From Liolophura sinensis (lineage: Eukaryota > Mollusca > Polyplacophora > Chitonida > Chitonidae), in the NCBI RefSeq assembly GCF_032854445.1, contig NC_088307.1, forward strand, positions 27,690,547 through 27,754,546: a stretch of 64,000 nucleotides of DNA. Reading direction: 5' to 3'. Shown piece after piece: positions 6,263-63,885 of the stretch. The first letter of the stretch is position 1. Every line of letters starts with the position of its first letter. The position numbers were made by a program, and so were the translations under genes. The notes beneath the pieces are model-generated. The model saw nothing but the letters and a program-made list of their open reading frames with translations, had not been told where the DNA came from and ran no database searches.

Positions 6263-8882
6263 TTAAAATCTAATGGAAATTTCGCAAGACACACGGGCAT
6301 GTAAACACGCTACTGTGTCTCCCCCGGGTGGTATCCTTTCCAGTTCAGCCCTGAGCCTCAGATCAACTTGCCTTTTCACGATTCCTGCAGAGGTAGAATG
6401 AAAATACATTGGGATGAAGATTGATTGATTGACTGAGTGACTGATTGCTTAAGTGTCTGTTCAGTGTTCACTACTTTAACACACGAGTTAGACTTTTGAC
6501 GGTGTAACCCTTCACAAAACACTAGAAAAAATGAAAACGTATAATAATAAATCGTGGAACTAAGCTAAGCACAAAAGGCAATCAATCATGTAAATGGCGC
6601 ACCTGTCTCTGTGATATCGAACCAATGAGCTGGAACTGCGTCACAAAACTGGTTCAACTTGGGCCCCAATTCTGATGACGTCATATTGCGGAACTCTCCT
6701 TTGCCTTGCTTCAATGGCTGAAGGTCGAGCGTTTTACCCTGAAAGAGATGGAATACATATGTATAAAATACACTTATCTATTTAGTTGACTAATACAGCA
6801 TTTACAATCAAAGTATTTTTTCATTAAGAATAAAATGAGAAAGATGATTAACATTTGAAACTTCATATCTTTATGTTATCTTTCATGTTATATGTGAACA
6901 TTGTGTAAATCCGGAAGCTGTTTGCCCCTGAGATAAAACAGAAAGTTTATTGTCACAAGAAAATAACTGAAATCTTTACAATCTTTACAAAAGGTAACAC
7001 GTTTGCGTATTTTGATCTATAAATTAAGAATAAGAATCAAGGTATATCTTTTTGAAGTGTATAGTTGAATAGGTCTCTACAACACAGAGATTCATAAGTA
7101 TATATGGGGCTGACTTACTCGTCTGTCTTCCAACATCTGCTTGACGGACCAGAAATCCGGGATTTTCACCTTGGTAACCAAGCACATGTCCCTATTAAAG
7201 TCTCTCAGCGCCACGTAACCCTAGTTGGACAGAAACCACACCAAATCATATCAGCACATCGCTGTACGCACGCCCCACAAACCAAGACTACAGACACTTA
7301 CAGCTGTTACTGAGGAAGGCTTTGCTATTCATTATGAACTCATATTTATCCCAAGCATGTAACAATCACGACTGGAGACTATGACCAGCAGGCTTAGCCA
7401 CCTATGTTTCTGCGGGTTTTAGCTTTGCCTTCACTATGAAGCTAATTGTACCATAATGCTATCTCCTTGTAACAGACCGGTCTCAATATTTCTAGTGCTG
7501 TCTCACTGGAATATCAAGTTGAAGATACTACACATGGCGCCCCACCTAGTCAGAGTATGAAGACAATGAGTGGGTCCGAAAAGAGGAAATGTTAAATAAT
7601 TTAAAAGCCTTTAGTATGATCTAATATAAGATGTGTGTCTATACATTGGATGTGTTAACGACTCAGATAGCGCAGTGCAGAGTATGTTATATTATAATAC
7701 TGTTTGGATATCTATAGACATTTCTACTCACTAATTTAAAGTCATGAAGGGCCATGGAGTTTTCCTCGCTAATCTTGTACGCCTCCGCGGACACCATGAG
7801 AATCGTTTCTTCTTTGTCATCAATCAAAACTGACTCGTGGATGTCCACATCTCCAGCTTTACGGATCCACGATACCCACTGAGAAGACAGAAATACCGAC
7901 AACAAATCAGAAGACTAGATTTGGAACATCGAAAGAATACATTTCTTTACTTATCTGATTGGTGTTTCACGCCAAGGACCAACAGTTTGTTGTCAGCCAT
8001 TCCAAAGTGCGACCGGAGAGAAATCCAGCATGAGATGGACGAACTCACAGCGATCGCAATGAAGGACGAAAGAATATAACTACACAAGACAAGCATACAT
8101 TGACAGCAAACGATTTATTGACATATTTCCTGAATTTTTTCACGTTCGCTCGTGGAAATTCAAAAGGAAATCTACGTTTGTGAATTCTTGAACCTTAAAG
8201 CTGAAAATGTATGCACGTGATTGGCCTGCTTTGGAACGCCGTACAAGTTTCAATGACAATATCTGAAAAATCCAAAAATCTTCCTCATGTACACTCGGAA
8301 GATGAAAAACACTTCAAAATTTTACTGTATTACAGCCACACATTGTAAGAAAATAAAGAAATAAAATAAAAGAATGATCATTGTACTCTACCTCGGGTTT
8401 CTCTGGTTTATTTTCTTGAAGATAGAATACGACACCGAAGACAATGGAGCCAAGGACCAGTGCCGTAGAGAGTGAAGCAACCGCAGCTATAAGAAATGGA
8501 CGCCTCCGCTCTCCTCTACTGGGTAGATCTCCTTCCGGATATGTCTGGAAGATTACAAAATTGGTAGTGGGTTTTTATTTTTATTTGTATTTACTCATAT
8601 ATCTGTTCTTCCATTTTATATTGCATACCGGTAAGGAAAGAAAGTTTATCTTAATGTCTGTTGTCGCAACACCATCACCGATAGTAAGATCGTCACCTCA
8701 AAATCACGAATTGCAAAAGACTGAATCGAATAGCACTCCCTAGATTCTCAAACGCTTTACTTAGAACATTGTCGATCTAAGCTTTAAAATGATGCAACAT
8801 GTGAAATGTTGACAAATCTGGTTCAACCAAGACTTACCCATTTATACGAATCCGACTTTTCTGCCGTTTTTGGTCCTGTCAT
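6263..8882 (-). CDS. BRICHOS-domain type II membrane precursor, copy A1 (six exons)
   Basis: Exons on the minus strand: 8882-8838, 8544-8392, 7878-7732, 7220-7119, 6738-6603, 6384-6263, giving 234 residues. All introns are GT/AG with phases 0,0,0,0,1. The N-terminus starts MTGPKTAEKS. A basic GERRR stretch precedes a hydrophobic helix (about residues 32-57) with no cleavage-like site, so it reads as a signal anchor. The BRICHOS core spans exons 3-5: conserved Asp in ALRDF (122), Cys in MCLV (128), Cys in QFCDAV (181), and an N-glycosylation sequon NMT (167). Exon 6 opens GIVKR (Lys198-Arg199) and leaves a 35-residue tail with Cys221 and Cys228 (C-x6-C) and an alternating polar/hydrophobic end. 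The family is known to chaperone beta-prone peptides; release of the tail at KR is inferred. The copy is closely similar to A2, showing duplication. A TATA box lies about 100 bp upstream of the ATG. The protein function is not known. Confidence 0.86.
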
Positions 8883-9189: not shown

Positions 9190-9560
9190 ACTCTTGAATG
9201 TGCAGAAGATAAAGGAGGACGTGAGACTAAAGCAGGTGGAATTAGAAGGGTACACGTGTAAACTAAAGGCAGTAAACAGCACGGGTGCCTTGACTGTGAC
9301 TGTCACTGACTGGGCCCGAGAACATATCCACTGGAGCCGGCGTGTGTGTCACATTACATTGTTTACTGTCTGCACAGACGACAGATTGCGTCATAAAATG
9401 ACCCGGATCTTGATGTTTGTATGTTACTATACGGAACCCAGATAAATGACTGCGAAAAAGGATACGTGTTCAGGGTAGGCACACGAATTAGAAACTCCTG
9501 GTCCACTAGAGAAACTTTTAAAGAAAGAAAAAGTAAGAAAGGATGATAGAAAAGCATAGT
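9190..9560. other. Upstream flank of A1, duplicated upstream of A2
   Basis: TTTACTGTCTGCACAG and ATGACCCGGATCTTGATGTT at 9361-9415 recur at 48218-48280. This marks the 5' extent of the A-type duplication. No exon was seen. Confidence 0.6.
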
Positions 9561-14649: not shown

Positions 14650-15560
14650 GTAATACCGATAAACTGACTGGAACGTCATGTCACGGAAAATGCGTGACAC
14701 CCCAAAGAGCCATGCCACGGACAAGGCCTAACTCTCCACAATGTCATGCCACAGACAAGATCTGACGCCCTATAAATGCATGCCACAGACAAGTCCTGAC
14801 GCCCCATAAAGTCATGCCACAGAAAACTACTGACACTCCATAAAGAGACAAGGCTTGACGCCCCAGTAAGTTCATGCCACAGACAGGGTATGACACCCTA
14901 TAAACTCAAACTACAGACGAGGCTTGACGCCATCTAAATTCATGCCACAGACAAACCCTGACGTCTTATTAAGGCCATGCTACGAGCAAAGCCTAACACC
15001 TCATAAAGTCATGCCACAGACAATTCTGACGCCCCATACACTCAACCTAGAGACAAGACCTGACGCCTCATGCCACAGACAAGGCCTGACGCCTCATGCC
15101 ACAGACAAGGTCTGACGCCCCATTAAGGTCATGCCACAGACAAGGCGCGAACCCGAATAAAGTCATGCCGCAGATAAGGCCTGGCGCTCTGTAAAATCAT
15201 GCCACAGACAAGGCCTGACACCCCATAGTCATGTCAGGGACAGGTCGTGTAGAAATCATGTCATGCTCAAGGTCTGACGCCCATTGTCATGCCACAGACA
15301 AGGCCTGACGTGTCATAAAGTCATGCCACAGACAAGGTCTGACGCATCATAAAGTCATACCACAGACAAGGTCTGACGCCCCATTAAGGTCATGCCACAG
15401 ACAAGGCCCGACGCCCCATAAAATCATGCCACATACAAGGCCTGACGGACTATGAAAGTCATGCCACACACAAGGCCCGGCACCCCAAAAAGTCATGCCA
15501 CAGACAAAGCCTGCCGCCCTGTAAAGTCATGCCACAGACAAGGCCCGACGCCCCATAGTC
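14650..15560. repeat. Minisatellite, ~36-bp unit
   Basis: Unit CATAAAGTCATGCCACAGAC followed by AAGGCCTGACGCCC, about 24 imperfect copies. It fills the intron-3 position of the A3 remnant. Confidence 0.8.
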
Positions 15561-15647: not shown

Positions 15648-16310
15648 CAGTTTGATGTCATGAAGGGCCATGGAGTTCTCCTCACCAATCCTGTGCGCCT
15701 CCGCAGACACCATGATAATCGTCTCCTTTTTGTCATCAGTCAAAGCCGACTTATGTATGTCCACAATTAAAAAAATAATAATGATACATTTTCATTTGTT
15801 ATAATTTTGATGTTTTTTTTTTACTTATTGATTTATTACGATTTTTGTTCCGCCTTTTTAGTTTTTGATTTTCCATTTATTTTTTGCGTTGGGCTTCAAG
15901 GTTAGCAGTAGATATCAAAGTTATAACGATTCAAGCAACAAAGGGGTATTCAAAATACCCACACAGATCATTGTTAGAGCCGTAAGGAAATTGTGTAGGC
16001 TCTAACAACAGTTATGCCTCATGTGACGTCCACTAATCTGTAGAAAGACACAGTACATAGATGGCGACGAGATAACTTTGGAACTTTTTTTCAAAACTTC
16101 ATGTTTACTGCAAAACCCAAATTAACGCCAAAGATAGAAGATTTAAAGTGTCTTGCTAAAAAAAGAAAACAAAAAAATAAATCAATGCACTGAAAGGAAA
16201 ATTGAACTGCTAATAAAATTATTTACTATCGGGCTAGTTCAGTATTTTAGAACATGAAAGCTTACAACGTCATAAGAATTCGACTTTTCTGCCATTTTCG
16301 GTAAAGCCAT
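15648..16310 (-). pseudogene. BRICHOS gene A3 remnant: exon 1 and truncated exon 3
   Basis: Exon 1 (16310-16266) reads MALPKMAEKSNSYDV, close to the start of A1, with donor GTAAGC. A partial exon 3 (15764-15648) reads from VDIHKSAL to MALHDIKL with donor GTTAGTG. The first ten codons of exon 3 and its acceptor are missing, and no exon 2, 4, 5 or 6 is visible. A SINE starts about 15 bp upstream of the ATG and displaces the TATA region seen in A1 and A2. A minisatellite takes the place of intron 3. Confidence 0.7.
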
Positions 16311-22468: not shown

Positions 22469-25400
22469 ATGACTGGATTCCCGCAGGCAGAAAAATCGAC
22501 TGAGCTGAAAACTGAAGAGGACAAATCTGAGGTAAGACTGACTATATACTTTTTGAGTTCTGCTGTACTTTGTGCAAAACGTTGTTTTGGGAATTAGCCT
22601 TTGGGAATTATTGAACTGAGTTGTCCATCTTGCTTGACCGTTGGTATACGAATGTCTGTTTCAACGCCTAGATTCAGCTAAAGAAACTTTCTTGTGGAAT
22701 TCAGAACAACAGGCTTCATTTTTGAAGTGGATCCCAGTGGATGTTTTCCATACTTTCGTTTAAAATATCAAAGAAAAAATCTGTAACGCTCATCAACAGA
22801 ATAAAAAGCAAATAATCATTTTCTAATCACTGCTATTTTTCTATGCCATTTAGAATGGTGTCACATCACCTAGGATCTCTCCTGTTTAAGTATAATGGGT
22901 ACTGAACAATATAGTGTGATTCTGAAATTAGGTCCACGTGATATCCACGGTCTACGCATTTGACATAGAAAAATGGAAATAAAACGCGAGATACCCCACT
23001 CAAGAGATTTAGTTCCGTTCTATTTTCAAACGACCGATGCATGGGTTTGGCAGCTCAGCAAGGCGAACTTTGTAAGCACAGTCTTCTTTTAGCGACGGAA
23101 ATCCGTCCTGCAACAAGGAGGCACACTGCATACTCTTTAAGGGCTCCTTCGTCGTCATTTGACTGAAAAATTGCTAAGTACCACGTTAAACCCCAAGCAC
23201 TCACTCACTCACTATTTCAACGGCCCCTTTCGTCTTTGTCTGTGCCTGCTTGGCTGTCAGCATCAGCTGGCTGTAGACATCAGCGAGTGCGCCAAACACA
23301 ACAGGGTTTTCTCATTTGGAACAAATTCTCCCCTGTTGGTGTTGGGAAGGCATATCAATCTGATTCAACATAACCTTTTGCACAACACGTCTGTGGCTTA
23401 CATCTTTTTTTTCTGCATATGTGACAGGCGTCATGTTCAATTTAAAGTAGGTAAAAAATCAAATATATTTTAAATACATATATGTCAAATATATCCTACG
23501 GCATGATCTGATCACATCACTAAGTTTCCCGTTCCGCAGAAACCACTGCACTCATTCTGACATACAATATTTGCATTTACACTATCTTCGATATATTGCC
23601 AAAAACTACAGATGGTACACCTTGCTTGTATTTATATGTGCAAAAACGTCAACAGTTTCCTGTTCAGCCGATATTACGACAGGACGGACTGTCTTTTTTT
23701 TTCAAGTTTGACATATTTTCTATTAATTCTACATAAAGATTGTCTTAGATTAAGATTATTTGAGTGCTCTGATTGAATTTAGTTTTCTGCGCCTTACCCT
23801 CACTAATGAAAGACGTCGACTGCTTTTCTTACAATTTACATGTTTATAAATGCGTCCTTATTTTATATAATTTGTATTTTAGCTTTCGTCCTGCGATAAT
23901 TCACCAAGCCCATCCATTATGACTGATGGATTGTGCACCATTTCACCTCCAAGATGTCGGTATCAAAACTTGGTCGAATTTGCATGCGGATATAATATAC
24001 ACTGCACACAAAATACGTTGTGGTTTGGGTAGATATATAAGTGAAACCAAAGTGGTGCACATTGGCAGGTATTTTTATGAAGATTGTTGAAGAATTCTCA
24101 TAAATCTTGATGAACGTTTGTATGGACATATAGGAGTCTAGCTTAAATTATAAACACAAAGCTCCCTTGACCGTTCAGTGACGAGTTATTTTTTCTCTTT
24201 TATCATAGTCAGTCCATTGATGTCCAAAGATAGTCCAGAACATTACAACATTCAATCATCCAAAAAGTGCATGCCACGTGGTCACGTAGAGCAAATCTTA
24301 GAAAACATTCGCACGGTCTTCACAGTTGCCTTTGAACTACACATAAGTTTTACATGATTAAATCTTATTGACAGACCGAAATGGAGAGGCAGAAGAACAG
24401 AAGTAACAAACGTGCGATTCTAGCAGCTGGTGGAGCGAGTTTGCTGACAGCATTCGTTGTAATAGCCGTGGTTATCTCCCTTTACTACGGCACTTACATA
24501 TGTCAAGCCAGGAACACACCTAAAACCGAGGTAAGAGACTCTCTGTTGGGATAAATATTTTCAAAACAAAAAAGTAACACACTTTTGCCTGTCTCAATAT
24601 CAATTACGTTTCGAGCTAATTTAGTCAACGGCTACATCCCGGATTCACTCGCCTCTAATCTTGGCTTCAGGGGCTTTCACTTAGGAGACCTTTCACCAGC
24701 CGAGATTTGTTTTACCAATCCTGACACAGATACCAAACTGTTTTAATAAAACGTACGTAGTATGTGTTTTACAAATCATTCAAGTACTAGGGCAAAAAAG
24801 ACATTCGCTTTTAAATTCAGTGCAATGCCCGAGGTTACGGGGCTAAACGTGTTATTTCAGACAGCAGTAGCTAGAGATAATCACAAACTTTTGATCCAGA
24901 AGCCTGTCGGACAGTCCAAGTCGAAAGGTTACAGTAATTTATTGGATAACGCTTTCAGCAAAGGTCGATATTTTTTTGACAATTAAGGACCGATATTATC
25001 ACCTCGATGTCTGGAGAATGTCTCCTGTCTAACGGCAAACGAGCTTTTATAAGTTACACCAGCGAAATGCATGGAACTGGGTCAAAGACTTGCCTCCGAA
25101 TTGAAGAGTGAAGATCATTTCAGCCTAGAAATCGCCGACCTTTACACTTATGAAATTGATTCCAGGTATTCGTTTGCTAAAATATTTTATTTAGATGATG
25201 ACTACAGCAGAAACTAAAACCGATTACAGACTTCTTAAAGAACAGCAGAATCAAAGGCATGGTTCCAGTTCCAGTTATTCACCTATATGTTTTAAAACAT
25301 TTTTTTCTATTATAGCAATTGTCTTGGATTCATTTACTTTCAGAAATTCTTCTTGATTATTTCGGAGTCCCAATCCACGGGAAAGGTCGAGGTGAAGGAC

Positions 25401-27699
25401 ACCGAGAGGGTGATCATAACGGAAACCAGGACACCCAATCGGACACTTCATGACACCGTGGCTCTACAGGACTTCAACAGGGTAAAATGTCGTGTAATAC
25501 GAAGCACGTCCTACCATAATTCTCTTGAGTTCAAATCAAGCCCTCGTCGTTCGGCTGTAGCTTGATGGGAGGCTTGTTAGACCTCTTTTGTAAGTGAATT
25601 AAACGAAGTTTATATCCGTAAATTCAACATTTTCCAAAATCCGTTAAAAACGTATATCAAAGAATGCACATCGGACGGTCTCTTTATGGCCATACCAATG
25701 AATGCACACGGGACGATTTCTTTATTGCCTTACCCATGAATGCACACGGGACGATTTCAATAAGGCCATACCAATGAATGCACACCGGACGATTTCTTTA
25801 CGGCCATACCAATGATTGCAAACTGTAACATAGAAACCACTATTAGTCCATGTTTAAGAACTGAATGTATTTAATTTTCTCTCTCAGAAAATACAAGCCA
25901 TAAAAGACCTTGACAGGAACGAGTGTTTCGTCTCCACTTTCGATATCCAGTTCGAGGAGGCCAAGGCAACGGTCCAGGGCAAAGAAGTAAGTGGAAATAA
26001 ATAAGATCGTATAATATTAAAGAAACTTAAATATAAGCGTCAAGTTAGACATTTGAAAGGTTTTTGGAAACCTGGACCGAGAGAAACGTTATTTTATGGC
26101 GGCGGTCATTTGTACTTCTAAGTAGCAAGCGTTGAGAGCGGAACATAGTCTGTCATGTCTATGGCTCGGAGGGGGGGGGGGGTAAAAAAATCTGTACCAT
26201 GCACATATGTATATTGGTTTGATTTCCAGACGGTGTTTGACCTTGAAAACTACGACACTCGGACTACAGTAAGATCAAAGGAGACCATCCCTTTTCAACT
26301 TGCGGAGCTAGCCCTAGGTTCTCAGGTGTTGGAATTCTGCAGAAATCTGCCTATATACTGGCTGACGGACGCTAAAGGCTCAGGTGCGTTTTCCACACTC
26401 CTCGTATTGCCAGAACACATTCTGCCCCTGTGACAAACCTGTGTGAATTTATCCAAAGTGAATAAATTGAATGAAAACAAAGGCTAAAACTATTGTTCCG
26501 CTATAGATAAAAAATACAAACAAAAACACCTTTTTAAGAAACATTACTTGTTTGTCATTTTGCATTTCCAAAACCTGAAGATTGACTACACTCAATAAAG
26601 TGTTAAATTTTGAGGACAAAGATAATCTCAACTATGGAACAGAAGCACAATTTTCTGCCCTATGTTTCCTTGGTTATTGTGACATCGCAATAAAACACCT
26701 AACCATCACTCGTGATTCTTTCATATAATTGATGAATTCAGCTTTTATCTTATTAACTAGTAACAGTTGCCATCGTTATATAGACAGATTTTTATTAGAA
26801 TTCTCTCATGCATTATCACTCTTGTTTTTACCAAGATAAAGTCAAGAACAGCCCATGCAAATATATATCTAAATAAATAACATGTGAATAAATAAATTCC
26901 CCAACAGGGAGTCCCCGCTGTGACTGAAGATGACAGCTGTTGAAACAAGGACTGAAAATTAATGTACATGGAAATGAGAAAATCAATCAATGAGATCATT
27001 CTTTCTTTAATTTAACAGTCCAGACATGATAATCCATCTACATGTGTTCATTTATTTCATTAGTGTTTTATCATTTTATAATTATATGAATATGTTTAAA
27101 AGTATTGACTTTTTTCATTGGTGTTTAGCGGTGTATTCAAGAATGGCTTGTGAAAATAATCCAAGTATTGTGTGAATACGGTGTAAAATTAGATGAATAC
27201 GATGAAAGGATAATTTCACTGCTAACTGTTCATGGTCACCGACAACGCATGCGCCATTGCTCATGGAAGTGATTTACAACGTTGCGATTACTAGATAAGC
27301 TTGAGGTTTTCACCCGGTGTAACACACGCCGTACTGTTAAGGTTTAGCCTCATCCCCCATGGTCCTTCACAAGTCTGGGTCAGTATTTATCAAAATGCTT
27401 AAAAGTTCTCTAAGAATCAACTTATGAATTCCTTAAAAAAAAGAGAAGCAGACATGTACAAGTTGAATTAAAGGCTTTTAGCTTGATATTTAGATGACAA
27501 AGTTTAACTTCAAGATTTTCTGTACACAGTTTGAGCTGAGCAAGTGCTCTTTGGCTGTATGGAAACGAGGGCGCAACCAACCAGCTGTAAACCGTATTTA
27601 CTGTGAACTGTTGTTGTATCTTTCACAGGCAATGTACGAGTACGAAGACAATGGCATGTTAAGATCACGATCAGTATCAGTATAACGTTTCAATTGTAA
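22469..27699 (+). CDS. BRICHOS-domain type II membrane precursor, copy P (six exons)
   Basis: Exons 22469-22531, 24375-24530, 25344-25481, 25888-25986, 26230-26383 and 27629-27699 encode 226 residues with the same phase pattern (0,0,0,0,1) as the minus-strand copies. The start MTGFPQAEKS matches the family N-terminus. Residues 35-63 form a signal-anchor helix after NRSNKR. BRICHOS features are Asp116 or Asp126, Cys132 in NECFV, and Cys189 in LEFCRNLPIYWL, a classical end of this domain. Exon 6 gives NVRVRR (Arg209-Arg210) then a 16-residue tail QWHVKITISISITFQL with no cysteine. The gene is transcribed opposite to its relatives and is the most diverged copy. Possible core-promoter elements (TTTAAAA near 22350, TTTATAAAT near 22424) are weak. 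AATAAA at 27827 fits the 3' end. Release of the tail at RR is inferred. Confidence 0.86.
25640..25835. repeat. Short tandem repeat in intron 3 of gene P
   Basis: Four to five copies of GAATGCACACGGGACGATTT then CTTTATGGCCATACCAAT. Confidence 0.7.
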
Positions 27700-36517: not shown

Positions 36518-37159
36518 CAGACTGAATTACAAGCCCTTTTACTACCCGATCGCAGCCAGTTGCCCATGTAAAGATTTAGGCCTATTAACCAGGAGCAGAT
36601 TTTTAGCGGTCTGGACAAAGAGTAAAACTGAACTGTCCATAAGTGTTCTCATTTATTCACTTTTATTATTTTTTATTGACTGTGTCTCAAGAGGCTACAT
36701 TCTGTCTAAATGGTGATGGTCAGGTCTGTGCTATAGGAAGCATAAAAAAAACAAAACCTGGATAATTGAAGGCTGAAAGATTGCGGTTCAGGATATCCGG
36801 GTTCAAATCCCTGTGTGAGTTGTACAGCCAAAGACACATACATGGACATACGTGATATCGAAGGCTGTCTAAATTGGGACCCTTGACTAAAAAGCCATGA
36901 TGCTCTTGACATAATATTCGATTTAATATACGATGCAACATTGTTCTTGTTATACACTTATTTTTCCAAAGGATCTTTGCCTGGATCAGTTGGCGTAAAT
37001 ATCACCCAGGCGCTTTGTGACTGCTTCGTGCTGAACCTTCTCCCCCAGGTCCATCATAGGTACACATACCTCACTATATATGCAGCTGAGTCTCACATAG
37101 GATAGAGCATTCCTCTTTGCTATTCCTGTGGTGGAAAAAAAAAGAATGACGTCACTGGC

Positions 37160-37370
37160 CAATAGATAACACATAACAGCAGCCTAGGTCACTAATGAAG
37201 GCCACAGCCTATAAGCGCGACCTCATTAGCCAACAGGTGTGCCATAACGGCAGCGTAGAGCATTATCAAAGGCCACAGTCTATAAGCGCGAACTGTCTAG
37301 GCAATAGATGGCCCGTAAAGGTAGTGTAGACCATTGTCAAAATGGCCACAGCCTTTAGGTGGGAGGCTTC
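37160..37370. repeat. 71-bp minisatellite in intron 5 of B4
   Basis: Three copies of the CCTATAAGCGCGACCTCA / CGGCAGCGTAGA / TTATCAAAGGCCACAG unit, between exons 5 and 6. Confidence 0.75.
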
Positions 37371-38381
37371 GATAACGCTACCAGGCATAGAATATCACAA
37401 AATCGTTTTAATAATATATTGATCATTTTCCTAAATACTTATAAAAGAGAAATACTCGGTTAAATAACAGTTTTCATTAGCTTTTTCCCTCCCATGTAAA
37501 TTCAAAAGTTATCACAAGTAGGAATGTCAACTGCCGACATCTTTCTCGCTGAAGTATCGATCTTAATTATAATATCACTTAAACGCTTTAAGATTAAAAT
37601 TGTGTCATATGCTAACCTGTGCCATCGGTGAGATCAAACCAGACAGCAGGCACGCCTGCGCAGAATTGGCTCAGTGTGGGGCCTAACTCTGATGACGTCA
37701 TATTCCCAGGCCTGAGTCTGGCGAGTTCCACTTTCTGTGGATCAAGATCTCGTCCCTTAAAACAAAAATCATATTTCACAACCATTTTAGAGAGAAATCG
37801 ATATCAACCTACACAAAACGAAAAAGCGGACTTTAACCTATATATGGCTTTAAACAAGGTGTCCACAATAATATGTTAGGCTAATTGTCTGATACAGTCG
37901 GTTGTTTACTTTCATTAATTTCATGGAAAATCATTATAACACACTCAGTGACTGAGCCAGGAATTTGCAGTAATGTATCGGTATTATCTGTATACTATGC
38001 ATCGAAACATGTGAGATTGGTCACCAGGCCTAATACCAGGGCTTTTACTGAACTGGAGTAACTAAGAGTTATACAAAGACTCTTCTTTGTTAAAAAAAAA
38101 AAACAATTATTGAAAACAAACAATTACAATGTATATGTACCAGATGCTGAGTCTAAAGGAGAAGAAAAAAATGATCAAAAAGTGTGAAAAACTATTCGTA
38201 AATATAATCTTAAATATTTGTTCAACTTTTTATGGGCAAAAGTGCTTTTGAAAATAATATTTTTATGGTTGATATTTGGGACCACCTTTTGGTGTATGCC
38301 TTTGAAATGTCTTTCTCTCCTTAAAGAACAAATGAGGAAATATCGATGATCATATTTACATATCACTGCAACGTAATTACC

Positions 38382-38560
38382 CAGGAACCAATGTGGTCGC
38401 TGTGAGTTCAAGTCCAGCTCATGCTGTTTTCCTCTCCCTCCGTTCGTGGGAAGATCTTACAGCAACCTGCGGATGGTTGTGAGTTTCACCCAGGCTCTGC
38501 CCGGTTTCCTCCCACAGTAAAGCTGGCTACCGTCCTATAAGTGAAATATTCTTGATCGCT
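38382..38560 (+). mobile_element. SINE in intron 3 of B4
   Basis: ACCCAGGAACCAATGTGGTC through AAGTGAAATATTCTTGATCG. Confidence 0.7.
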
Positions 38561-39574
38561 TTTCCCATTCTTTCATCTGAAGTTTACCTTAGTTTTTCGT
38601 TTTCTCATATTTTAAGACTACGTAGATATGTTAAACACTAACCTGTCTCGCTTCGACGGTATTCTTAACGGCTTCAAAATCCGGATCTGAAACCTTAGTC
38701 ACGAAACAAAGGTTCCTTTTCAATTCTCTCAGGGCAACATAACCCTACCGAAAGAATAAAAATAAAGAGCACTCACCTAAACGTCATTATTAAGAACTAT
38801 TTACATACTAGGTCCAATCTGAGCAACTTTTCTTGACGGATCCCCCTAGCCAGTTCTGTGTACCGGAAATTCCCAGGTGCCACTGCATTCATAACAATTC
38901 TTGTTCAGCAATATTTTACAACAGTTTTAGATGCATTTCATATTGTTGGGATATATGTGATCATGCTGAATCGTTAGACCACTCAGACCACCGCTTATTG
39001 TCACCCTACAAGGCCCCACGTGTCAAGCACTGAAGGCGGGGAAATTTATTTGTAACAATTCATTTTTTATTTGTAACAAGGCCGGATTTGAACCCTCGAC
39101 TCATGTGTTAAGTTACGATTAAAAGGTAAATACTTCTAACCTACCCTAAACCGCGAATAATCCAGAAAAGTTATCCCGAAAAAAAGGCTATCAAAACGTA
39201 ACAGTAAATTGATAATTATATGCTCAGAATCTCACAAAAATACAATGAATGAAAAATTATTCCACATTTACAAGGGCTGTAGAATGAAAGAATGCAAGCA
39301 GTGAAGCAAGGCTCATCAACAAGCAACTGAAATAGCGCTAAAAATGTTTCATTTTGTTGCATGTAGTTGGTGCCCGCTGGTTCAGATGGCTAAAGTACTT
39401 ACTGGCGGTTACCGTAATATTAGTTACATGGTTACGCAGTGCCAAATATCTGACGTGTTTGATAATTTCTTTCATTCATCTACAACGCCCTGCCGTGTGC
39501 GTCTCTTTTCAAGTAGCTGCCAATGTGCATGCGTTTCCGGTTCACATAATCTGGAAGACTTCTGTAGAAAAACA

Positions 39575-43360: not shown

Positions 43361-46300
43361 TCACGAAGGTAGTTCACATCGGATATGTAGGCACGCGAGT
43401 ATCGGTTCGTCCAGACGTGGAGGCCCCTGCTGTCTCGGGTCAACTGCTCTCTTTTCAACAGCTGCCAGGATAGAATGAAAACACGTAGGGATAAAGACTA
43501 GTTAATTGACAGATTTATTGATTGATTGACTGATTGATTGGTTGATTGATTCATTCGTTAATTGGTAGGTTAGATTGTTGGGTGGTTTGTTCATCGACTG
43601 ATTAATCCATTGATTGTGGATTAGTTTCTGGGTTGTTTAGTTGGAGGGCTGGTTGCTTGCATGATTTACTGATTGTGTAGATCAGTTGGGATTGATTCAT
43701 TGGTGTTTGAGTAAAAAAGCAACAATTGTGCTTGCTGTAACTGACTTTTTGAACTGTACATAAAATTATATATGAAACTTTTTGAAACTTAACGGAAAGA
43801 AAAAGCTTATGTAGAAAAAACATTTAAAGCTGTATCTGAAACACCCTTTACTGTTTAGTTAGATTTCTTCACTGAAGTAAGTGCAGTAAAGTACAAGTCG
43901 ACAATAACATCACACCGACTTTTTTCTGGCTCTGAAACATGCATGCCAGATTCAGTTTCATGTACAAGTACACATTTTAGAAGTAAAGTTAACGAAAAGT
44001 TAACTAAAGTTAGTTATTTACGTTATGAGTAAAGTTAGCGGGAAGTTAATTATTCATCATTATAAGCTGGGCAGATGTTATGTGACGTAGCTGCCAGCAA
44101 ATGACAATCAAACTATTTGAATTCATTTAATCTAGTGAAAACAGATCTACACAATATGCCTACAGATATTTTAGATGCATATTTTTTGTTCTTCCTACGG
44201 GTACCTACCTGTTTTATGTGTATATTACATGACAGGGGACGTGAATGACTTTACCACACTACATGAAGCATTTCAGAGACTGTTAATACGATGAGTAAAC
44301 ATTTCAGCAACTGTTGCACAGACTCTTACATATTTTGGAAAAAGCAATCAGAGATCGTGAAGCACACAACAAATCGTGGAACGAACCTAAGTACAAAAGT
44401 CAGTTAATTATGAAAACGACTCACCTGTCTCCTTGACATCGAACCAATGAGCTGGAACTCCGTCGCAAAACTTGCTCAAAATGGGCCCCAATTCTGATGA
44501 CGTCATATTGCGGAGCTGTGCTTCACCTTGCTTTAATGGTTGAAGGTCGAGTGTTTTGCCCTAACAGAGATGAAATGCATGTAGTAAAGACTCTTCCTAC
44601 TGCTTAGTTGATTATGCGTATACTCAAATTAAAAGAAAAATAAAAAATAATTTTTAGCATGCCACAATAACAAGTTTGTAAATCACAATATGTCTCACTT
44701 TGCTAATTAGAGATAAGTCACATTTTAATCGCCGTTATTACTGTAGTCTTTCATTTGTCTCAATTTGCAATTTCGCGTGATCTTGTGTTAAAAGTTTACA
44801 ATACGTATTCTGACCCTAAGCTATTCACTACTACGAGAAAACAACAAGTTTATTGTTAAGAGAAAGCAAAGTTGAGTTATTTTTTTCTGACTATCATCTG
44901 TTTTACGTCGTGCTCACTTGTACGCCGGCGACCAGCTTATGGTGGGGGGAAACGAATTGGCCTTTCCACGTACGACCTAAGAGGAAGCCAGCATGAGCTG
45001 GGCTTGTACTCACAGCGACCGCATTGGTGAGAGGCTTTTAGTCATTGAACTGCGCTAGCACGCTAAACTCCTCGGCCACGAAGACCCAAATTTGTTGCAC
45101 GCAACGCAACATTGCAGAAGTAAATAAATCGATTATACTATACTTAGTCCTCAATGTTTGGCAAAATAGACCCTGAAGATAGTCACCAATAGGCTGACAT
45201 ACTCGTCTGTCTTCCAACATCTGCTTGACGGACCGGAAATCCGGGATTTTCACCTGGGTAACTAAGCACATGCCCCTTCCAAAGTCTCTCAGCGCCACGT
45301 AACCCTAGTTGGAAAGAAAACGCACCGCCTTATATCAGAGCTAAGCCGTAAACACGGCCCCGAAAGTAAGAGGTCATATTTTATACATATGTACTGGTTG
45401 AAGGATTTCACTATTTACGTAAATCACACCAGGATTCGAACTCGGGTGTCAGAAGCCGAACTACAGCGCTCTGTCAAGTGAGCTAAAAGGGAATTTCCAC
45501 AAGCTGCTGGTAGTATAAGCACAAACAAGCTGCTCCCGTTACATGCATTCCGTTACTTATTATATCGGCCGACTCCCGTTACTTATTCACGTTAAATGAC
45601 ATTCTTTTCTGTTCACTATAAAAAGTCATATGTATCCCATACATGCGTCATTGATATAACTGTTCAACTTTTAGCTGAGTCATTATACGGCGTCGCCCGA
45701 TGTGATAAAGGGTTTCTGATCAGCCTGCGCATTAATTCAGCTTGGCAGGGTTTAAATTTCATATACCCCTTGTGGGCATGGCCTGCAGCTCTGACAAGTG
45801 TTATGTTCACATTTTAACCTGCCTGATCAGTGTATATGTAGGTATGTGGCTATAGGAAGCTGGACACTAAGCCGATATATCATTTTTGTGCTGCCTCAGA
45901 GAAAGGCCATACCAAAGACGCAAGACACTAAACACAGTATATACTGAATCCAGATGGAACCAGACGATTGCAGATGTTAAAAACTGGTAAATGCCCCAAT
46001 ATGGTATTGAACGCTTGTTTCCAGCGGGAGCGTTGATGAAGCGGCTAACACAGTGCAGTGAATATTGTGTGCGGTGAATACTGTGTGCGGTGAATGTTAA
46101 TACAGGTACTCACAAGTTTGAAGTCGTGAAGGGCCATAGAGTTCTCCTCGTGAATCCTGTAAGCCTCCGCAGACACCATGAGAATCGTTTTTTCTTTGTC
46201 ATTAATCAAAACCGACTCGTGGATGTCCACATCTCCGGCATTACGGACCCAAGATATCCACTGAGATATATGGAGTTCATGAAAACGATTTCTAAACGTC

Positions 46301-47742
46301 ATTTTTCAACTTTGTTACGTTTTAAGTAGAACATTAAATTCAATCTTCATTTACAAATTCTGTGAAACTAATTATGAAAATATTGCTTTACAGCGCCATA
46401 GAAAGTTTTCTTGCGATATTTGAACTGGAACGTCCATTTTGGTTAACGGCTGATATATGAATGTTTGGTTTGAGGCAAAGCACAAAAATATTACACTGAT
46501 TTGCGAGGTAGATAAAAAAATACACCGGAATTATACATTAACATCATTTACGAACACAAAATATTCAACATCGTTTTCTTACCTCGGGTTTCTCTGCTTT
46601 GTTTTGTTGAAGGTAGAATATGACACCAAAGACGATGGAGCCAAGGACCAGTGCCGTGGAGAGTGAAGCAATCGCGGCTATAAGCACTGGACGCCTTCTC
46701 TCTCCTCTACTGGGTAGGTCTCCTTCCGGATATGTCTGGAAGAATAGTATGTTGTTCGTGCTTTACTATTTGTTTTATTTTGTCATATTCTTCTTTTGGC
46801 ACTTAATACTGCATGGATGGAGAGTTGGAAATTTGACACTAAGTCCTAAGAAAAAGTCCAAAAGTATACCTTATTGCAAACTACATAACATCCAGGAATC
46901 CATTATTAACAATCCCTTCCTCTCCGGGCGTACGCGGGAAGGTCTGACAGCAGCTTGTGGATGGTTGTAGATTTCCCCCGGATTCTGCCCGGTTTCCTCC
47001 CACCATACTGCTGGTCGTCGTCGCATAAGTGAATTTTTTGTTTAGTAACCTTTTAATCATCAAACAAATAAATAAATAACTAAGCCATTACAATGACATG
47101 CGCTCTGTGCTTCCCACGCGTTGTATACTGAGGCCTAGTTTTACAGCATATCTATTGTTGCGATACCATCTCTGACGTGGAAGCAAAACTTCATGTCAAA
47201 AAGAGGGAAAATGGAAAATGAAACATTGCGTTCAACAGCATTAAGTTAAAACTCAAATGATATACACAAAAAACTAAATAAATGTTAATGCCAACAGTTT
47301 AGAAAGTCTCTCCACGTATTGATTGTTTGCAGCCTGTAAAATAATTTTAGATTAAAACATTTCATGTTTCTGAAAAACATGTTTCTGTTGTGGAATACAA
47401 CACCATCAATGTTGATTTGACATACATGTAAGATAAGCTAGTCAGATGACATCATTTTGTAAACATTTGTAACGTGGTAAATTTGTAAGAATATGATCTT
47501 AGCTCAGGTTTTATTCTAACTGTTCAAGTAGAAGATGAAATGGTAGCAACTCACACATCCCAATTTATCAGATGTCACTAGAGTACAATGCCGCAAAATG
47601 CTTTGTTTTTATCATACTTACAAACAATTACATTACAAAAAAACACTACAAAGGGACCAAACACGCGGACTCTTATACCGCCAATAGGGAAACTTACCAA
47701 TTTACAGAAATCGGACTCCTGTGCCATTTTCGTTCCGGTCAT
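43361..47742 (-). CDS. BRICHOS-domain type II membrane precursor, copy A2 (six exons)
   Basis: Exons 47742-47698, 46735-46583, 46260-46114, 45304-45203, 44560-44425 and 43461-43361 encode 227 residues. Exon sizes 1-5 (45, 153, 147, 102, 136 bp) equal those of A1. The N-terminus is MTGTKMAQES; a GERRR basic stretch precedes the signal anchor; the BRICHOS cysteines lie in GMCLV and KFCDGV; the NMT sequon is kept. The terminal exon diverges: AVEKR (Lys198-Arg199), then a 28-residue proline-rich tail ending ILACLHIRCELPS, with cysteines spaced C-x4-C. The phase-1 junction makes Ala where the A1, B0, B3 and B4 terminal exons make Gly. Introns 1 and 4 carry SINEs absent from A1, so these inserted after the duplication. 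AATAAA lies about 75 bp past the stop. Confidence 0.86.
44886..45090 (-). mobile_element. SINE in intron 4 of A2
   Basis: TTTTACGTCGTGCTCACTTG through CGCATTGGTGAGAGGC; absent from A1. Confidence 0.75.
45431..45505 (-). repeat. tRNA-like sequence in intron 4 of A2
   Basis: The reverse strand reads TTTAGCTCACTTGACAGAGC and GAGTTCGAATCCTGG, giving A-box and B-box words and a D-arm that can pair. The T stem and acceptor stem do not pair, so this is a tRNA pseudogene or SINE head rather than a working tRNA. Confidence 0.4.
46912..47080 (+). mobile_element. SINE in intron 1 of A2
   Basis: CCTTCCTCTCCGGGCGTACG through AACAAATAAATAAATAA; absent from A1. Confidence 0.75.
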
Positions 47743-47846: not shown

Positions 47847-48529
47847 CAAGTCCTCATGTTGTGTGTAATTGAGTTCAACCTTTGTTTATCAGCCAGTAGA
47901 AATGGCGTCAACAAGGATGTAGGTTCCGATTGGTTCAGCACCGACCAGTGAGGAAGATCTGATCTCGGAGAAGTCATATATCGAATTTCGGCTTATTTGC
48001 AGTAAAATGTTAATTCATAAATGTGTCCACTTAAAAAAAGAGAAAAGTAGCTGTTTTCTGAACTGATCAACTTAGTAAGACCATAGAAGGCGAGGACGTG
48101 CTCCTTGAGCCGCTGTAATGGAAAGACTGTGTAAACTGAAGGCGTTAAAAAGCGTTCTTTCACTAGGGCCTGCACCGCCTGAGCCCGCATCCTTCAAAGC
48201 TAGTGTCACATTACACTGTTTACTGTCTGCACAGGCGACAGATTTCGCCATACAATGACCCGGATCTTGATGTTTGACATGTTATCACGTAGGCCTATCC
48301 CAGGAAATGAGGCGAGGAAAAACGAAATGTGCCCAAGATTGACGCACAAAAGAGAAAGAATTACAAGCATCATAATGATGGTCGTCCTCCTGTAGGTAAA
48401 CAATGCCAAATACAAACATATAAATGTGTCTGATTTAATTTCATAATATATGATTTTATTGTACACAAGACCCACCCCTTCTATCAGCACACGGTCAAAA
48501 CCATCCTAATACCGTGGGTGAGACTTTTA

Positions 48530-55805: not shown

Positions 55806-56354
55806 GGTGTCGGAGGGAAATTCAAAATGTGGTGTGGACTTCAGGCGAGAGTCCAAGGGGCTGCATACGAGTCGGAAGGTCTGCAACTCTACAAGACCGT
55901 AATCAAGATTTCAACCATTTTGGGGCAACCAGAGAAGGGATCTGAGGAGCATAGAGGCGTAAAAGTGACATGTTGAAGATTATAGGGTTTTGAAAGTTTA
56001 CTCCAACATACTGGGCGAGGGTCAGAACGAAAAGATTAGAAGTTAGTGCACAGGGTGTAGAAGTGGTGATTCCGAGTATAACATTGCGGTTGAACGTGTT
56101 TTCTACGACACATACAGACGAGCGTCTTAGACGATTTTTTTCTCACTAAGTCAAAAACTTCGTAAAACAGCCTCATCTGTTTGAAAGGAAATTAAGAATT
56201 TCAAAGAAATACTTGTTCTTATCAGAAGGAACTGAAATTTTTCAACGAGGCGCCAAGTATATACTTTGAATTTCCAGCACTAAATTCACCCTAGCAAGTT
56301 TAAAATGTTTGTGGGGGTAAGGAGGGGGTAGGTTAAGCATATCTAACCACGCAA

Positions 56355-57901: not shown

Positions 57902-60900
57902 TTAATCAACTGAACTGTCCCAGAAAGGTAGATCAATCTCATAATACACGCAGTTGAGTCTCTCGTGGCTTTGTTGGTCGTCAGCACGCCTCTTTGTAAT
58001 TCCTGTCGTGGCAATGAAAAAGAGAATGATATTTTTGGTCATTTTTTGTATTCGATGAGTATTTCTTTATGGCCGTTCACAAACCTCAGATAATGAAAAT
58101 GTGACAAATAGCTTTACAAAACAGAAGTAGGTGAAGCGTAAGAAGGGTTCGAACACTTGACCTCACTTGGAGAGGCAGCATAGACCATTATCAAAGACCA
58201 CGGCCTGTAACAGCAACCTTACTAGAAACAGGTGTCCCGTAACGGCAGTGTACACCATCACCAAAGGCCACAGCCTATAAGCGCGACCCCATTGGCCAAC
58301 AGGTGTCCCATAACGGCAGCGTAGATCATTATCAAAGGCCACAGCCTATAAGCGCGACCCCAATGGCCAACAGTTGTCCCGTGACGGCAGCGTAAATCAT
58401 TATCAAAGGTCACAGCCTATAAGCGCGAACTCACTTGCCAACAGGTATCACGTAACGGCAGCGTAGATCATTATCAAAGGCCACAGCCTATGAACGCGAC
58501 CCCATTGGTCAATAGGTGACCCGTAACGGCAGCGTAGATCATTATCAAAGGCCTATAAACGCGCACTCACTGACAATAGGTGTACCACAACGGTAATGTA
58601 GATCATCATCAAAGGCCACAGCCTATAAGCGCGAACTCACTGGCCAACAGGTATCCCGTAACGGCAGCGTAGACCATTGTCAAAGGCCACAGCCTTTAAG
58701 TGAGAGGCTTCGAAAACTCTACCAGACATCGAATATCATGAAATCTTTTAAATAATGTATTTAATATTTTCCTAAATATTTTACTTATAAGAGAGAAATA
58801 TTCGGTTAAATAACAAAACAATCTCAGAGGCTTTTTTCTTTCATTTAGATCCAAAAGCTATAATAAGTCGAAGTTTCAACTGCCGACATCTTTCTCGTTG
58901 AAGTATCGATCTTAATTATAATACCACTTAAACACTGTAAGATTAAAATTGTGTCATACGCTAACCTGTGTCATCGGTAAGATCAAACCAGACAGCGGGC
59001 ACGCCGGCGCAGAATTGGCTCAGTGTGGGGCCTAACTCTGATGACGTCATATTCCCAGGCCGGAGTCTGGCGAGTTTCACTTTCTGTGGAGCCAGATCTC
59101 GTCCCTTTAAAACAAAAATCACATTTTACCACTATTTTAGACACAAATCGATATCAACCTACATAAAACAGAAATGCGGACATTAAGCTATATCTGGCAT
59201 TTAACAAGATGTCCCACCACAATTTATTCTCTGATACAATCGGTTGTTTACTCTGAGCACTTTTCATTAATTTCATAGAAAATTTTTATAAGACACGCAG
59301 TGACTGAGCCAGGAAATTACAATCATGCGTCGGTATTAGCTGCATGCTGTGAATCGAAACATGTGAGGCACGTCACCACGCCTAATGCCAGGGAATTCGG
59401 TGCAAAATTTAGCTCAACTGGAGTAACAGAGAGTTATACATAGACTATTCTCTGTTAAAAAAGCAGTTATTGGGAACAACCAATTACACTGTATATGTAC
59501 CAGCTGCTCAGACTAAAGGAGAAAAAAACAAAAAATGAGCAAAGGGTGTGAAAAATTATTTGTAAATATGATCTTAAATATTTGTTCAATTTTTGATGGG
59601 GAAAAGGACATTTAAAATAATGTTTGTATTGTGGTTATTTGGGACCACTTCTTGCTATTTGTCTTTGAAATGTCTTTCTTTCCTTAAAGAAAAATGAGTG
59701 AAATATTGATGATCATATTTATAAATTTCTTTTCCCATTATTTAATCTGAATTTTACTCCAGTTTGTCGCTTTCTCCAACTTTAAGATTACGTAGACGCG
59801 AGACACTCACCTGTCTCGCTTCGACGGTAGTTTTAACAGCCTCAAAATCCGGATGTGAAACTTTAGTCACGAAACAACGGTTCCTTTTGAATTCTCTCAG
59901 GGCAACATAACCCTACCGAAAGAATAAAAAACAGCACTCACCTAAACGTCATTATTAAGAACTATTTACATACTAGGTTCTATCCAAGTGACTTTTCTTG
60001 ACGGATCCCCCCCACCCCCAGCCTGTTTTGTGTACCCGAACTACCCAGGTGTCATATCAATTCTTGTAAAGCAATATGTTACAAAATTTTTCGATGCATT
60101 TCATTTGAGAGTTGCCTAACTCCAGTCTTAAGATTTATTGTCACATATTTGATGTCGGGGAGATTCTTGGCTGGAGGGAATCGGATTCCCCGTGAGTGCC
60201 CAGGGTATGCACAGGAAAAAGCATGTTACTGAAAAACTTTACCACACATTGTTGGGAGATATGTGGTCTCCCTGGATCGTTAGACTGCTCAGACGACAGC
60301 TTATTGTCACCAAGGCCACACATGTCCAGCACTAAGGGCGGGAAATCCACTCGTAACAATTCTTTGTTAAGGCAGGATTTGAACCCTCGACCCATGTTTT
60401 AAGTTAAGATTTAGAGGTAAGTACTTCAAACCTACTCTAAACCTCGAATAACTGAAAAAAGTTATCCCGAAATAAAGGCTATCAAAACCTAACACTAAAG
60501 GGATAACTATGCACAGAATCGCACAAAATACAATGAATGAAAATTATTCCACATTTTGTTGCATGGAGTTTACATGGGCTGTAGAATGAAAGAATGCAAG
60601 CAATGAAACAAGGCTCATCAACAAACAACTGAAAGTAGTGCTTAAAAATGTTTCATTTTTTATAGATGCATGTAGTTAAAGGCGGCTGGAGGTCCCCTGG
60701 ATCATATGGCTAAAGTACTGACTAGCTGTTACCCTAATATTAGTTACATGGTTACTCAGTTCCAAATATCTAAGGTGTTTGGTAATTTCTTTCATTCATG
60801 CTATCTCCTTTCAAGTAGCTGCCAATGCGCATGCGTTTCCAGTTCACATGATCTGGAAGGTGGCGGTTCACAGAGACTTGATGGCATAGGTTATATTAGA

Positions 60901-63885
60901 AGATAAGTTGGTTGAATTATAACCAAACTATCCCTTTTTATATGATGTTCTCTCCTCAAGTTTCAAAGATAAACTGGTTATGTTTGCATTTCTATATTCA
61001 TTACACAGAGATGACCGCTTTGATCTGCCGTCTCCTATTGTCATGTCGTTGTGAACCGCCATCTTACAGGTCATGTGACCCGGAAACGCATACGTTTTGG
61101 CGACTATTTTAAAAGAGATAACTTGCATTCGCCAAACGCACAGTGCATGAATAAACCAAATTTTCAAACATGTTATATATTTGGCGCAGCTCCACTAAAG
61201 ACAAAAGCTTTCAGAAAAGGTCACAGTGCGAGAGTTACATGCTTAAGGCAAATGCCAAGAATGATTTTTTGCTAAGCACATAGATGTTGTGTGCTCCGGG
61301 CGTTTACAACGAACACTTCAATTTCTCTTCATTCAAAAACCTGATCGACGCCATATAGGTGAAACTTCTTCGAAGACGTCGTAAACACAACTAAAAAAAT
61401 AAATAAGGCACTATCCTGGAAATTTTCACAAAGATCACGAGGCCAATACATATTGCTAAAGTCATATCATGTTTTGCCATAACGCACCACTTTGAAGTCA
61501 TGCAGGGCCAGAGAGTTTTGAGCGTTGAGTCTGTAAGCCTCGGCCGACACCATCAGTATGGTCCGTTCCTTCACGTTGATGACAACCGACTCGTGAGTCG
61601 CTATGTTGCCATGGAGACGCTTCCACGAAATCCACTGAAACAAAATAGAACCGCGAAACCAACGTTTGTACAGATAACGAGTTTCATGGAAAGTACCGAT
61701 AAAAAGAAGCTAACAAGGAGAAATTGCTAACCTCCTCCAAAACTATCGATGGCAGAAAAGTAAACAGTATAATGATGATAATTATCCGGCAAAATACTTG
61801 GCATTTAGAAATTGAGAAGCCATATCACTCATCTGGAAGCGGTTTGGAACTTACACCGGAAATGCCATACCTAGGTGGTAAATACAATGTGTTTTTTATT
61901 AGTCAAAACGACAAACTGTTTTGAATGGAAATTCCGAAAATGATAAATTCGGCTATTATTTATCGAGCTGGTTGACGGCCTGACATTGTGCGAATCGGGC
62001 TGTAGTCCTCTTTGATACTAGTGGATGGCGCGTCAAAAACAGCAAGGATTCATCAGAAAGCCTTTCAATCTTCAGCCAGTTTCATCACGTGATACAAATA
62101 GGAGACTTGTAATTGCATGCATTACTACTGTTCCGAGTAGATCAGCTAATAAAGTAGTCCCCTCTATCAGGAAAAAGGCCTCAGTACGTAACGTAAAATA
62201 TGTATACCCGTCATTGTTTTTTTTTTTCTGTTTTTTTTTGGCTACTTTCCGTTATAATTCCCTCATTATGCAATATCACAGAGCACGCCTTTAAACACAG
62301 TAACTAGAAGAAAGGTAAAAGAAAATTCTTTTCATATCTGTTGTTACATAGTTATTGTCACCTGTGTACTGCTTAAGTGACGTGCGCTGTTTGTTAACAA
62401 TTTAAACATACCTCTTGATTTGCGGAACTTTTCTCGGCTTGGAGATGGAATATTACCCCAGCAAAAACGGCACCAAGAACCAAAGCGGTGGAGAGTGCAG
62501 CAATCAGGGCGAATGCAGAGCGTTTGTGTTCTCCTCTAGCTGGAGTACAATCCTCTTGGTTATACTGTGAAAACATTGTGAATCCACGTACGCAAAATTT
62601 TAAACAACACAACTAAACGATATTCATAAACAAACATAAAATCAATGGTGCACCCAGAGCTTTGTAGAACACATTACAAATGTGAAATCAACTTGTGAAT
62701 GCTAATGTATATCTGTATCAATGCTGGAAGTTTTACCTTGCATTTAACCAACCAGATGACAACGAGCTGTACTTAGGAGTGTCTACACATACTGTGTCTT
62801 CTTCTGGTGCGGCGAGTTCATGCCGCCGAAGTGCTGCCGGCAGTGAAGTATTGTGCCAAAGAGACCTGGCACCACACCCGGTCACATTATTTTACATGTG
62901 GCCTACCAGTCCTGTTTCCCTGCTCCAACCTTTCAATGCTAAGCAAAAAAACAAAACAGGAAAAAAGCACCTTTCTCTGTGTTACCATTGGACTGGGCTT
63001 TGATCACAGATCTTCCCGAATTTGAGGTGTACGCTCTAACCACTACACAAGAGATAGGATTGATCAAGGCTACTAAATCTAATTACACCTTTGCTTAGTC
63101 ACGCCGCTGTTGTCTGGCCAAAACGCGGATATGGAGACGCCATTTTTTTTCAAAACAAGATCTCGTTTGTATGTAACTTGGGATTTTCGGAATCTACATT
63201 TATTTCGCTATCAGCATGCCGCATGCACGATTTTATTAGCAATTTCTTAGGAAACAGTCGATGACGAAATTAGGTTTAAAGGTTGTTCCGTAAAAGCCGT
63301 CGTAATTACCGCATGCAGCAATTAGGAGCTCACGTTTTTTGGCTGTGTTACAAGGCACGAGAGACAGTACGTGGGTAAGGGGAAGTAACTCTCCCCGCAA
63401 TCTGCCCAACTTCTTCCACCTATGAACCCGACCGATAATATACAAAATTTAATTTTTCCTAAGTACGGCGTTAAACCACATGTACTACTTATAATAGGTC
63501 GGTTATACACTTGTTGATAGACACAAGTCTGTGCTTTACACTCTGTACTATGTGACATCAAGGGGCCTACGTGAGCGGGGCAAATGTTTAGTTTGCCAGA
63601 GAGGCACAATGACCCAGGAACCTCACACCAATGCGGGCGTTGTGAGTTCTAGTCCAGTTCATGCAGGCTTCCTCCCTCTTGGTAGCAGTGATGAGAAATA
63701 TGTTCATTTAGCTTCTTTATCTAGGGGAATGTGTTCACAAGTCCATGTATGGATTAATCTATGTCAGCAGTGTGAAATATGAAAAAAAAACGAAAATAAA
63801 AAAGGACAAAAAAAATGCCTGATCTAAAATATTTACTTACCACTTTGTCCAATTTTATCTTATCTGCCATTTTTAGTCCCGTCAT
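57902..63885 (-). CDS. BRICHOS-domain type II membrane precursor, copy B3 (six exons)
   Basis: Exons 63885-63841, 62564-62412, 61634-61488, 59912-59811, 59104-58966 and 58002-57902 encode 228 residues with phases 0,0,0,0,1. The N-terminus is MTGLKMADKIKLDKV. Exon 2 has GEHKR followed by a signal-anchor helix (AFALIAALSTALVLGAVF). Exon 3 ends NSLALHDFKV; exon 4 carries Cys in NRCFV; exon 5 carries the NMTSSEL sequon and Cys181 in QFCAGVPAVWF. Exon 6 starts GITKRR and leaves an acidic tail of about 28 residues with one cysteine (ERLNCVYYEIDLPFW). Intron 5 holds a 71-bp minisatellite also found beside B0 and B4. The single tail Cys could pair between chains or with the membrane-proximal part; this is speculative. 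Confidence 0.85.
58160..58720. repeat. 71-bp minisatellite in intron 5 of B3
   Basis: About eight copies of the same unit as at 1690 and 37160, between exons 5 and 6 of B3. Confidence 0.8.
63560..63690 (+). mobile_element. SINE fragment in B3 intron 1
   Basis: Same insertion as 2741-2875. Confidence 0.65.

Follow-up and report, generated by a model that had tools for sequence, protein, structure and literature searches.

The BRICHOS domain has been proposed to act as a chaperone for the aggregation-prone region of its own proprotein (PMC10182729). In Bri2, a convertase (furin) is described as cutting after Arg 243, which frees a tail of 23 residues (PMC10932164). The preproalvinellacin gene of Alvinella is reported to have five introns and to carry its peptide in the last exon, and at least six such genes, some of them in tandem, are given for this worm (PMC5431198); the peptide is reported to be identical between paralogs, with diversification taking place in the BRICHOS domain. 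For Heteromastus filiformis, 13 BRICHOS precursors are described, 5 of which are membrane-anchored, with tails of 18-91 residues after a Lys/Arg-Arg site (PMC10745061). Here we report a cluster of BRICHOS genes in a 64,000-nucleotide stretch of Liolophura sinensis DNA (contig NC_088307.1), the whole of which is referred to below as the window. It is a real gene cluster of this known precursor kind, and what is new about it is that the tails are non-cationic and fast-changing.

The copies were found by reading the exons of an original prediction made from the DNA, which had proposed four complete and four broken copies, and by searching the window with those exons. The four complete genes stood, with A, D and E on the minus strand and F on the plus strand (Table 1); the broken copies proved to be three fragments (Z, B and C) and one duplicated exon 6. 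As read from the DNA, every complete gene has five GT..AG introns with the phases 0,0,0,0,1, so that the six-exon plan with identical phases was recovered in full, as was the short N-terminus starting with MTG (4/4 in each case). The spliced proteins are 234 (A), 227 (D), 228 (E) and 226 (F) residues long. In a four-sequence alignment, identity to A is 78% for D, 53% for E and 27% for F.

The spliced protein models were compared with the BRICHOS profile PF04089; by the original prediction, the lack of a match for any copy would have refuted it. All four complete models scored above the gathering cut-off of 25 bits (A, 28.8 bits, E 1.5e-06; D, 27.1; E, 33.2; F, 31.0). The match covers exons 3 to 5, and the joins between these exons are therefore also supported. 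Fragment C alone gave 17.8 bits, under the gathering cut-off. Two cysteines and one aspartate are described as conserved in the BRICHOS family, the aspartate being present in 97% of single domains (PMC9627735). Within the BRICHOS region of the alignment, D112, C128 and C181 (numbering of A) are invariant in A, D, E and F, which accounts for the two cysteines that had been noted in the core. D112 is probably the family aspartate, as its spacing of 16 to the first cysteine matches that of proSP-C and Bri2.

Each of the four proteins has one strong hydrophobic stretch, with its 19-residue windows lying between residues 32 and 55, as expected for the signal anchor first proposed. In all four complete genes there are basic residues on the N-terminal side of this stretch and a long C-terminal part after it. 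These two features suggest a signal anchor with the N-terminus inside and the C-terminus outside, a topology that is predicted from the flanking charge.

In all six copies that have exon 6, a basic site stands at its start, in agreement with the dibasic start previously described. The site is Lys-Arg (KR) in A, D and C, KRR in E and Z, and RVRR in F. Counted after KR (or after RVRR in F), the tails are 35 (A), 28 (D), 28 (E), 41 (C), 32 (Z) and 16 (F) residues long, with net charges of 0, -1, -5, -1, -1 and +1, respectively; in E and Z, a cut after KRR would take off one further Arg. Most tails are thus neutral or acidic, as had been claimed, and the charges of the tails from the complete genes make simple cationic antimicrobials unlikely as the products. 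There are two cysteines in the tails of A, D and C, with 6, 4 and 5 residues between them (the pair in D lies in CLHIRC), one in the tails of E and Z, and none in that of F, which reads QWHVKITISISITFQL. Five of the tails (A, D, E, C and Z) have the motif L/V-x-C-[LIVM]-[HY] in common. A further small peptide could come from the C tail (exon 6, 36986-37125), where a second KR lies close to the end.

The expectation of a beta-prone C-terminal segment found partial support. Where hydrophobic/polar alternation was compared with shuffled sequences, the F tail alternated perfectly over 16/16 residues (p 0.0001), and weak alternation was seen in the last 10 residues of A (p 0.02) and in 8 residues of D (p 0.05). 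Alternation was not unusual by the same comparison in the tails of E (p 0.15), Z (p 0.27) and C (p 0.76).

The whole window was scanned on both strands with a simple rule requiring an acceptor, the phase and a dibasic site. This gave 24 passing sites; five of them are the sixth exons of genes A, D, E and F and of fragment C. The scan recovered neither that of Z nor the duplicate beside A. Exon 6 of F is less certain than the other exon models. It was identified by the acceptor, phase and dibasic rule scan only, and no homologue of it was found in the window. Rule-passing sites occur at 0.19 per kilobase (kb) per strand, giving a chance of about one in five of meeting one in the 1.25 kb after F exon 5.

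Exons 1-5 and exon 6 have diverged very differently. Between A and D, exons 1-5 gave a nonsynonymous divergence (dN) of 0.09 and a synonymous divergence (dS) of 0.31, a ratio of 0.29 with a synonymous excess at p 4e-6; judged by this ratio, the exons 1-5 core is under purifying selection. In contrast, only 53/109 nucleotides (nt) of exon 6 are identical between A and D, compared with 479/538 in exons 2-5 (p 1.5e-19). Exon 6 is also less identical than nine 60-nt intron flanks (328/518, p 0.005; the flank comparison covered exons 2-6) and than its own upstream flank (44/60, p 0.002). Between E and C, 52/76 nucleotides of exon 6 are identical, compared with 225/241 in exons 4-5 (p 1.6e-7). These tests treat sites as independent, and alignments of the short tails are uncertain. 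Taken fairly, the sequence comparisons point to a constrained core and to a rate of change in exon 6 that equals or exceeds the neutral rate. The per-exon dN/dS values for A-E and D-E were dropped, as exon 2 has a one-codon shift, exon 5 is of unequal length and saturation affects most of the dS values. For the fourth exon of A and D (7220-7119 and 45304-45203), dS is 0.064, compared with 0.29-0.46 in exons 2, 3 and 5, and the dN/dS of 1.16 comes from very few synonymous changes. The low dS suggests gene conversion of this exon.

The DNA itself shows the gene structures, the BRICHOS domain and the hydrophobic anchor, together with the dibasic sites, the duplications and the rapid change of exon 6; splicing, topology in vivo, and the cleavage and release of the tail are inferred. 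The locus is probably a cluster of duplicated genes for type II membrane pro-peptides. A short cytosolic end would be encoded by exon 1 and the first part of exon 2, and the signal anchor by the remainder of exon 2. Exon 3 would supply a linker on the lumenal side, the BRICHOS chaperone domain would come from exons 3-5, and exon 6 would encode both the cleavage site and the tail. What happens after translation is modelled on Bri2 cleavage and on the worm peptide precursors: BRICHOS would keep hold of the tail during folding of the chain in the endoplasmic reticulum, and a furin-type proprotein convertase would cut after KR, KRR or RVRR late in the secretory pathway, so that the complete genes would release peptides of 16-35 residues. 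We infer function with more reserve. The likeliest role, as host-defence or microbiota-contact peptides and not as simple cationic membrane lytics, is a tentative suggestion that may well prove wrong. A much more speculative idea, which we rate as very doubtful, is that the locus acts as a peptide diversifier, in which a conserved chaperone and anchor (exons 1-5) would be combined with fast-changing non-cationic tail exons, with the orphan 3' modules serving as alternative endings. The phases would permit D exon 3 to be joined in frame to C exon 4, and A exon 5 to be joined in frame to the duplicated exon 6 or to Z exon 6.

Several observations weigh against the reading of the locus as a cluster of effector pro-peptide genes. 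A PDB search with gene A alone and with the four-sequence profile gave no sequence match up to E 10; a structure of the proSP-C BRICHOS domain exists (2yad). Arg at the P4 position of the KR site is absent in A, D, E and C, and R-x-R-R is found only in F. A clear beta pattern is likewise confined to the F tail, and the charges of 0 to -5 in A, D and E are a misfit for antimicrobial peptides. No kappaB-like site is present in the 600 nt upstream of A, D, B and Z or in the 115 nt upstream of E, and E has no poly(A) signal, among the three forms scanned, nearer than 1254 nt after its stop codon. The rate data contain further points of this kind. Between A and D, divergence in the 3' flank of exon 6 equals that in the exon itself (24/49 versus 53/109). 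Between E and C, the intron right before exon 6 is also diverged (35/57), so that local drift may be involved. Exon 6 of E and Z is identical at 73/82 positions, no faster than the 88% identity of their shared 5' stretch. The A-D tail dS is saturated and the E-C tail dN/dS is 0.96; positive selection is therefore not shown. Given the 3' flank, the intron before exon 6 and the E-Z comparison, relaxed constraint explains the rate of tail change as well as diversifying selection does.

The likeliest alternative is that the genes encode lineage-specific ITM2 (Bri)-like proteins with a signalling or membrane role, the tail being a by-product or a signalling peptide like Bri23 with no part in defence. 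The layout of Bri2 does match, from the cytosolic N-terminus, single membrane segment and BRICHOS domain to the cut after Arg 243 and the 23-residue tail, and the tails of the cluster are not cationic. However, the genes have been duplicated repeatedly, several copies are broken and the tail changes fast, all of which is more in keeping with an effector family than with a conserved signalling gene, and we consider this alternative unlikely.

Relaxed constraint would be expected if the products were secreted or membrane BRICHOS chaperone or mucus proteins of a gastrokine-like kind, in which exon 6 is dispensable and its fast divergence reflects lost constraint. The divergence of exon 6 is close to that of its untranslated flank or exceeds that of introns, and its length varies, as might be expected of such an exon; the case is also helped by positive selection on the tail not having been shown. 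A dispensable exon fits poorly, however, with the dibasic site that starts exon 6 in 6/6 copies that have it or with the motif L/V-x-C-[LIVM]-[HY] shared by five of the tails, and this explanation is quite improbable. Least probable of all is a mostly decaying locus in which duplicates were retained by chance and one or two genes work: three fragments, a duplicated exon, and satellites and transposon-like pieces around them point that way, but the A-D core dN/dS of 0.29 and the open frames, splice sites and TATA boxes of A, D and E do not.

The copies fall into three groups, with A, D and B together, E, C and Z together, and F apart. E and Z share a 5' stretch of 1010 nt at 88% identity. The exon 3 part of fragment B is 77% identical to A over 39 residues (tblastn) and 83% over 124 nt (blastn). 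Exons 1-3 of fragment C were not found in a search of the window, and a satellite array lies upstream; around 36.7-37.8 kb, the weak-match search covered the matches listed. Weak exon 2 matches at 40.1-42.5 kb were mostly rejected, since they fall in the satellite array. Upstream of C there is a sequence like intron 5 of D (44302-44107 versus 40017-39817, 79%), followed by the satellite array, and this arrangement points to recombination between unlike copies as the origin of C.

The window also contains a variety of repeats. A 71-nt tandem repeat is present in intron 5 of E, Z and C (58174-58700, 1697-2160 and 37198-37354), before the tail exon, and could possibly have aided unequal exchange of tail exons. 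Long tandem arrays lie between or beside the copies at 3320-5280, 14695-15555, 19088-21525, 40132-42542 and 54466-55807, with units of 182, 34, 38, 58 and 41 nt. On the plus strand, open frames at 49489-52421 gave two matches below cut-off, one GIY-YIG-like (21.0 bits against a cut-off of 22.6) and a weak one to reverse transcriptase (18.4 bits against 29.6); this looks like a broken Penelope-type element. On the minus strand, 12469-13722 gave reverse transcriptase and RNase H matches of 19.4 and 17.3 bits, under the cut-offs of 29.6 and 25.8, and is probably a decayed long interspersed nuclear element. A repeat resembling a short interspersed nuclear element, with the core CCGGTTTCCTCCCACC, is found at 11 places when up to 3 mismatches are allowed, for example at 9677, 28794, 36326, 38501 and 46989. 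It resembles, as a lead only, a repeat of molluscs or their relatives; none of six strings taken from it was found in the open-licence PMC literature searched.

Signals flanking the genes were also located. TATAAAA lies before the ATG by 103 nt in A, 104 nt in D and 87 nt in both E and Z; the chance of this is about 0.009 per copy, for a 45-nt zone that was picked after the sites were seen. As E and Z are recent duplicates, judging from the 1010-nt stretch, their TATA boxes are not independent. Upstream of F there is TTTAAAAG at -119 and TATAAAT at -40, and none of the scanned TATA forms was found for B. The upstream blocks of A and D are 91.5% identical over 82 alignment columns, a level comparable to the 87-93% of the coding exons, and are a candidate cis-regulatory element. 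They contain GTAAACA, which is forkhead-like. A motif scan found two kappaB-like sites upstream of F, one per strand. After the stop codon, AATAAA is found at 75 nt in D, at 128 nt in F and first at 443 nt in A. Between the A stop codon and the duplicate of its exon 6, a poly(A) signal scan found AATAAA, ATTAAA and AGTAAA all absent.

Table 1. Positions of the gene copies and associated features in the window
Feature	Position	Strand	Content	Basis
Gene A, complete	6263..8882	minus	exons 8882-8838, 8544-8392, 7878-7732, 7220-7119, 6738-6603, 6384-6263	splice sites, phases, PF04089
Gene D, complete	43361..47742	minus	exons 47742-47698, 46735-46583, 46260-46114, 45304-45203, 44560-44425, 43461-43361	PF04089
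Gene E, complete	57902..63885	minus	exons 63885-63841, 62564-62412, 61634-61488, 59912-59811, 59104-58966, 58002-57902	PF04089
Gene F, complete, divergent	22469..27699	plus	exons 22469-22531, 24375-24530, 25344-25481, 25888-25986, 26230-26383, 27629-27699	PF04089, alignment
Exon 6 of A	6263..6384	minus	GIVKR, then 35-residue tail with CLHARVSC, charge 0	recovered by rule scan
Tandem duplicate of A exon 6 start	6128..6168	minus	reads GIVKRQIDIWSNA, then stop; AG before	tblastn, sequence
Fragment Z	1577..3058	minus	exon 1 and exon 6 of an E-like gene; middle with exons 2-5 missing	TATAAAA at -87
Fragment B	15648..16310	minus	exon-1-like 16310-16272 (weak, 9/13 residues) and 3' part of exon 3, 15764-15648	
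Fragment C	36986..38744	minus	exons 4-6: 38744-38643, 37755-37617, 37125-36986	open frame
Upstream block of A	9346..9426	minus	464 nt from start codon	blastn
Upstream block of D	48203..48284	minus	461 nt from start codon	blastn

A survey places 2019 BRICHOS domains in thirteen groups, including ITM2A-C, group I, group II and AMP (antimicrobial peptide) (PMC9627735). Like the ITM2/Bri protein Bri2, which is a type II protein with a BRICHOS ectodomain, a basic site and a short tail, the genes described here have a predicted layout of this form. The cytosolic end given for Bri2 (residues 1-54) is longer than that predicted here (about 31-36), and the copies here are clustered and have a fast-changing tail. 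With the polychaete BRICHOS-related AMPs (arenicin, alvinellacin, capitellacin, nicomicin and HfBRI), the cluster has in common a hydrophobic N-terminal segment, a BRICHOS domain, a dibasic site and a variable C-terminal peptide. Whereas those peptides are cationic, the tails here are near neutral or acidic (A 0, D -1, E -5, C -1, Z -1, F +1). Among the Heteromastus products, HfBRI-75 and HfBRI-91 are described as being without a pronounced cationic property (PMC10745061).

A 2022 review gives BRICHOS-AMPs as known only from polychaetes (PMC9756803), and a host outside the annelids would widen the known range. In a report on the mussel digestive gland, an unnamed BRICHOS domain-containing protein appears among the up-regulated transcripts, beside a defensin-like protein. 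In a search of the open-licence PMC literature, none of the matches listed dealt, in its title or in the beginning of its abstract, with a family of molluscan BRICHOS peptides, which is not proof of absence.

A conserved BRICHOS core joined to several rapidly diverging, non-cationic tails would offer a direct test of how broad a range of clients the domain can serve. BRICHOS has been likened to the vertebrate cathelin-like domain as a prodomain of defence peptides (PMC6265681), and the cluster could be used to test whether it is a general prodomain of this sort. A parallel in gene structure is alvinellacin, which, like the genes here, has five introns and carries its peptide in the last of six exons. 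The pattern of change is reversed, however: in Alvinella the peptide is the constant part, whereas here the peptide exon is the fastest-changing coding part and the BRICHOS core is conserved.

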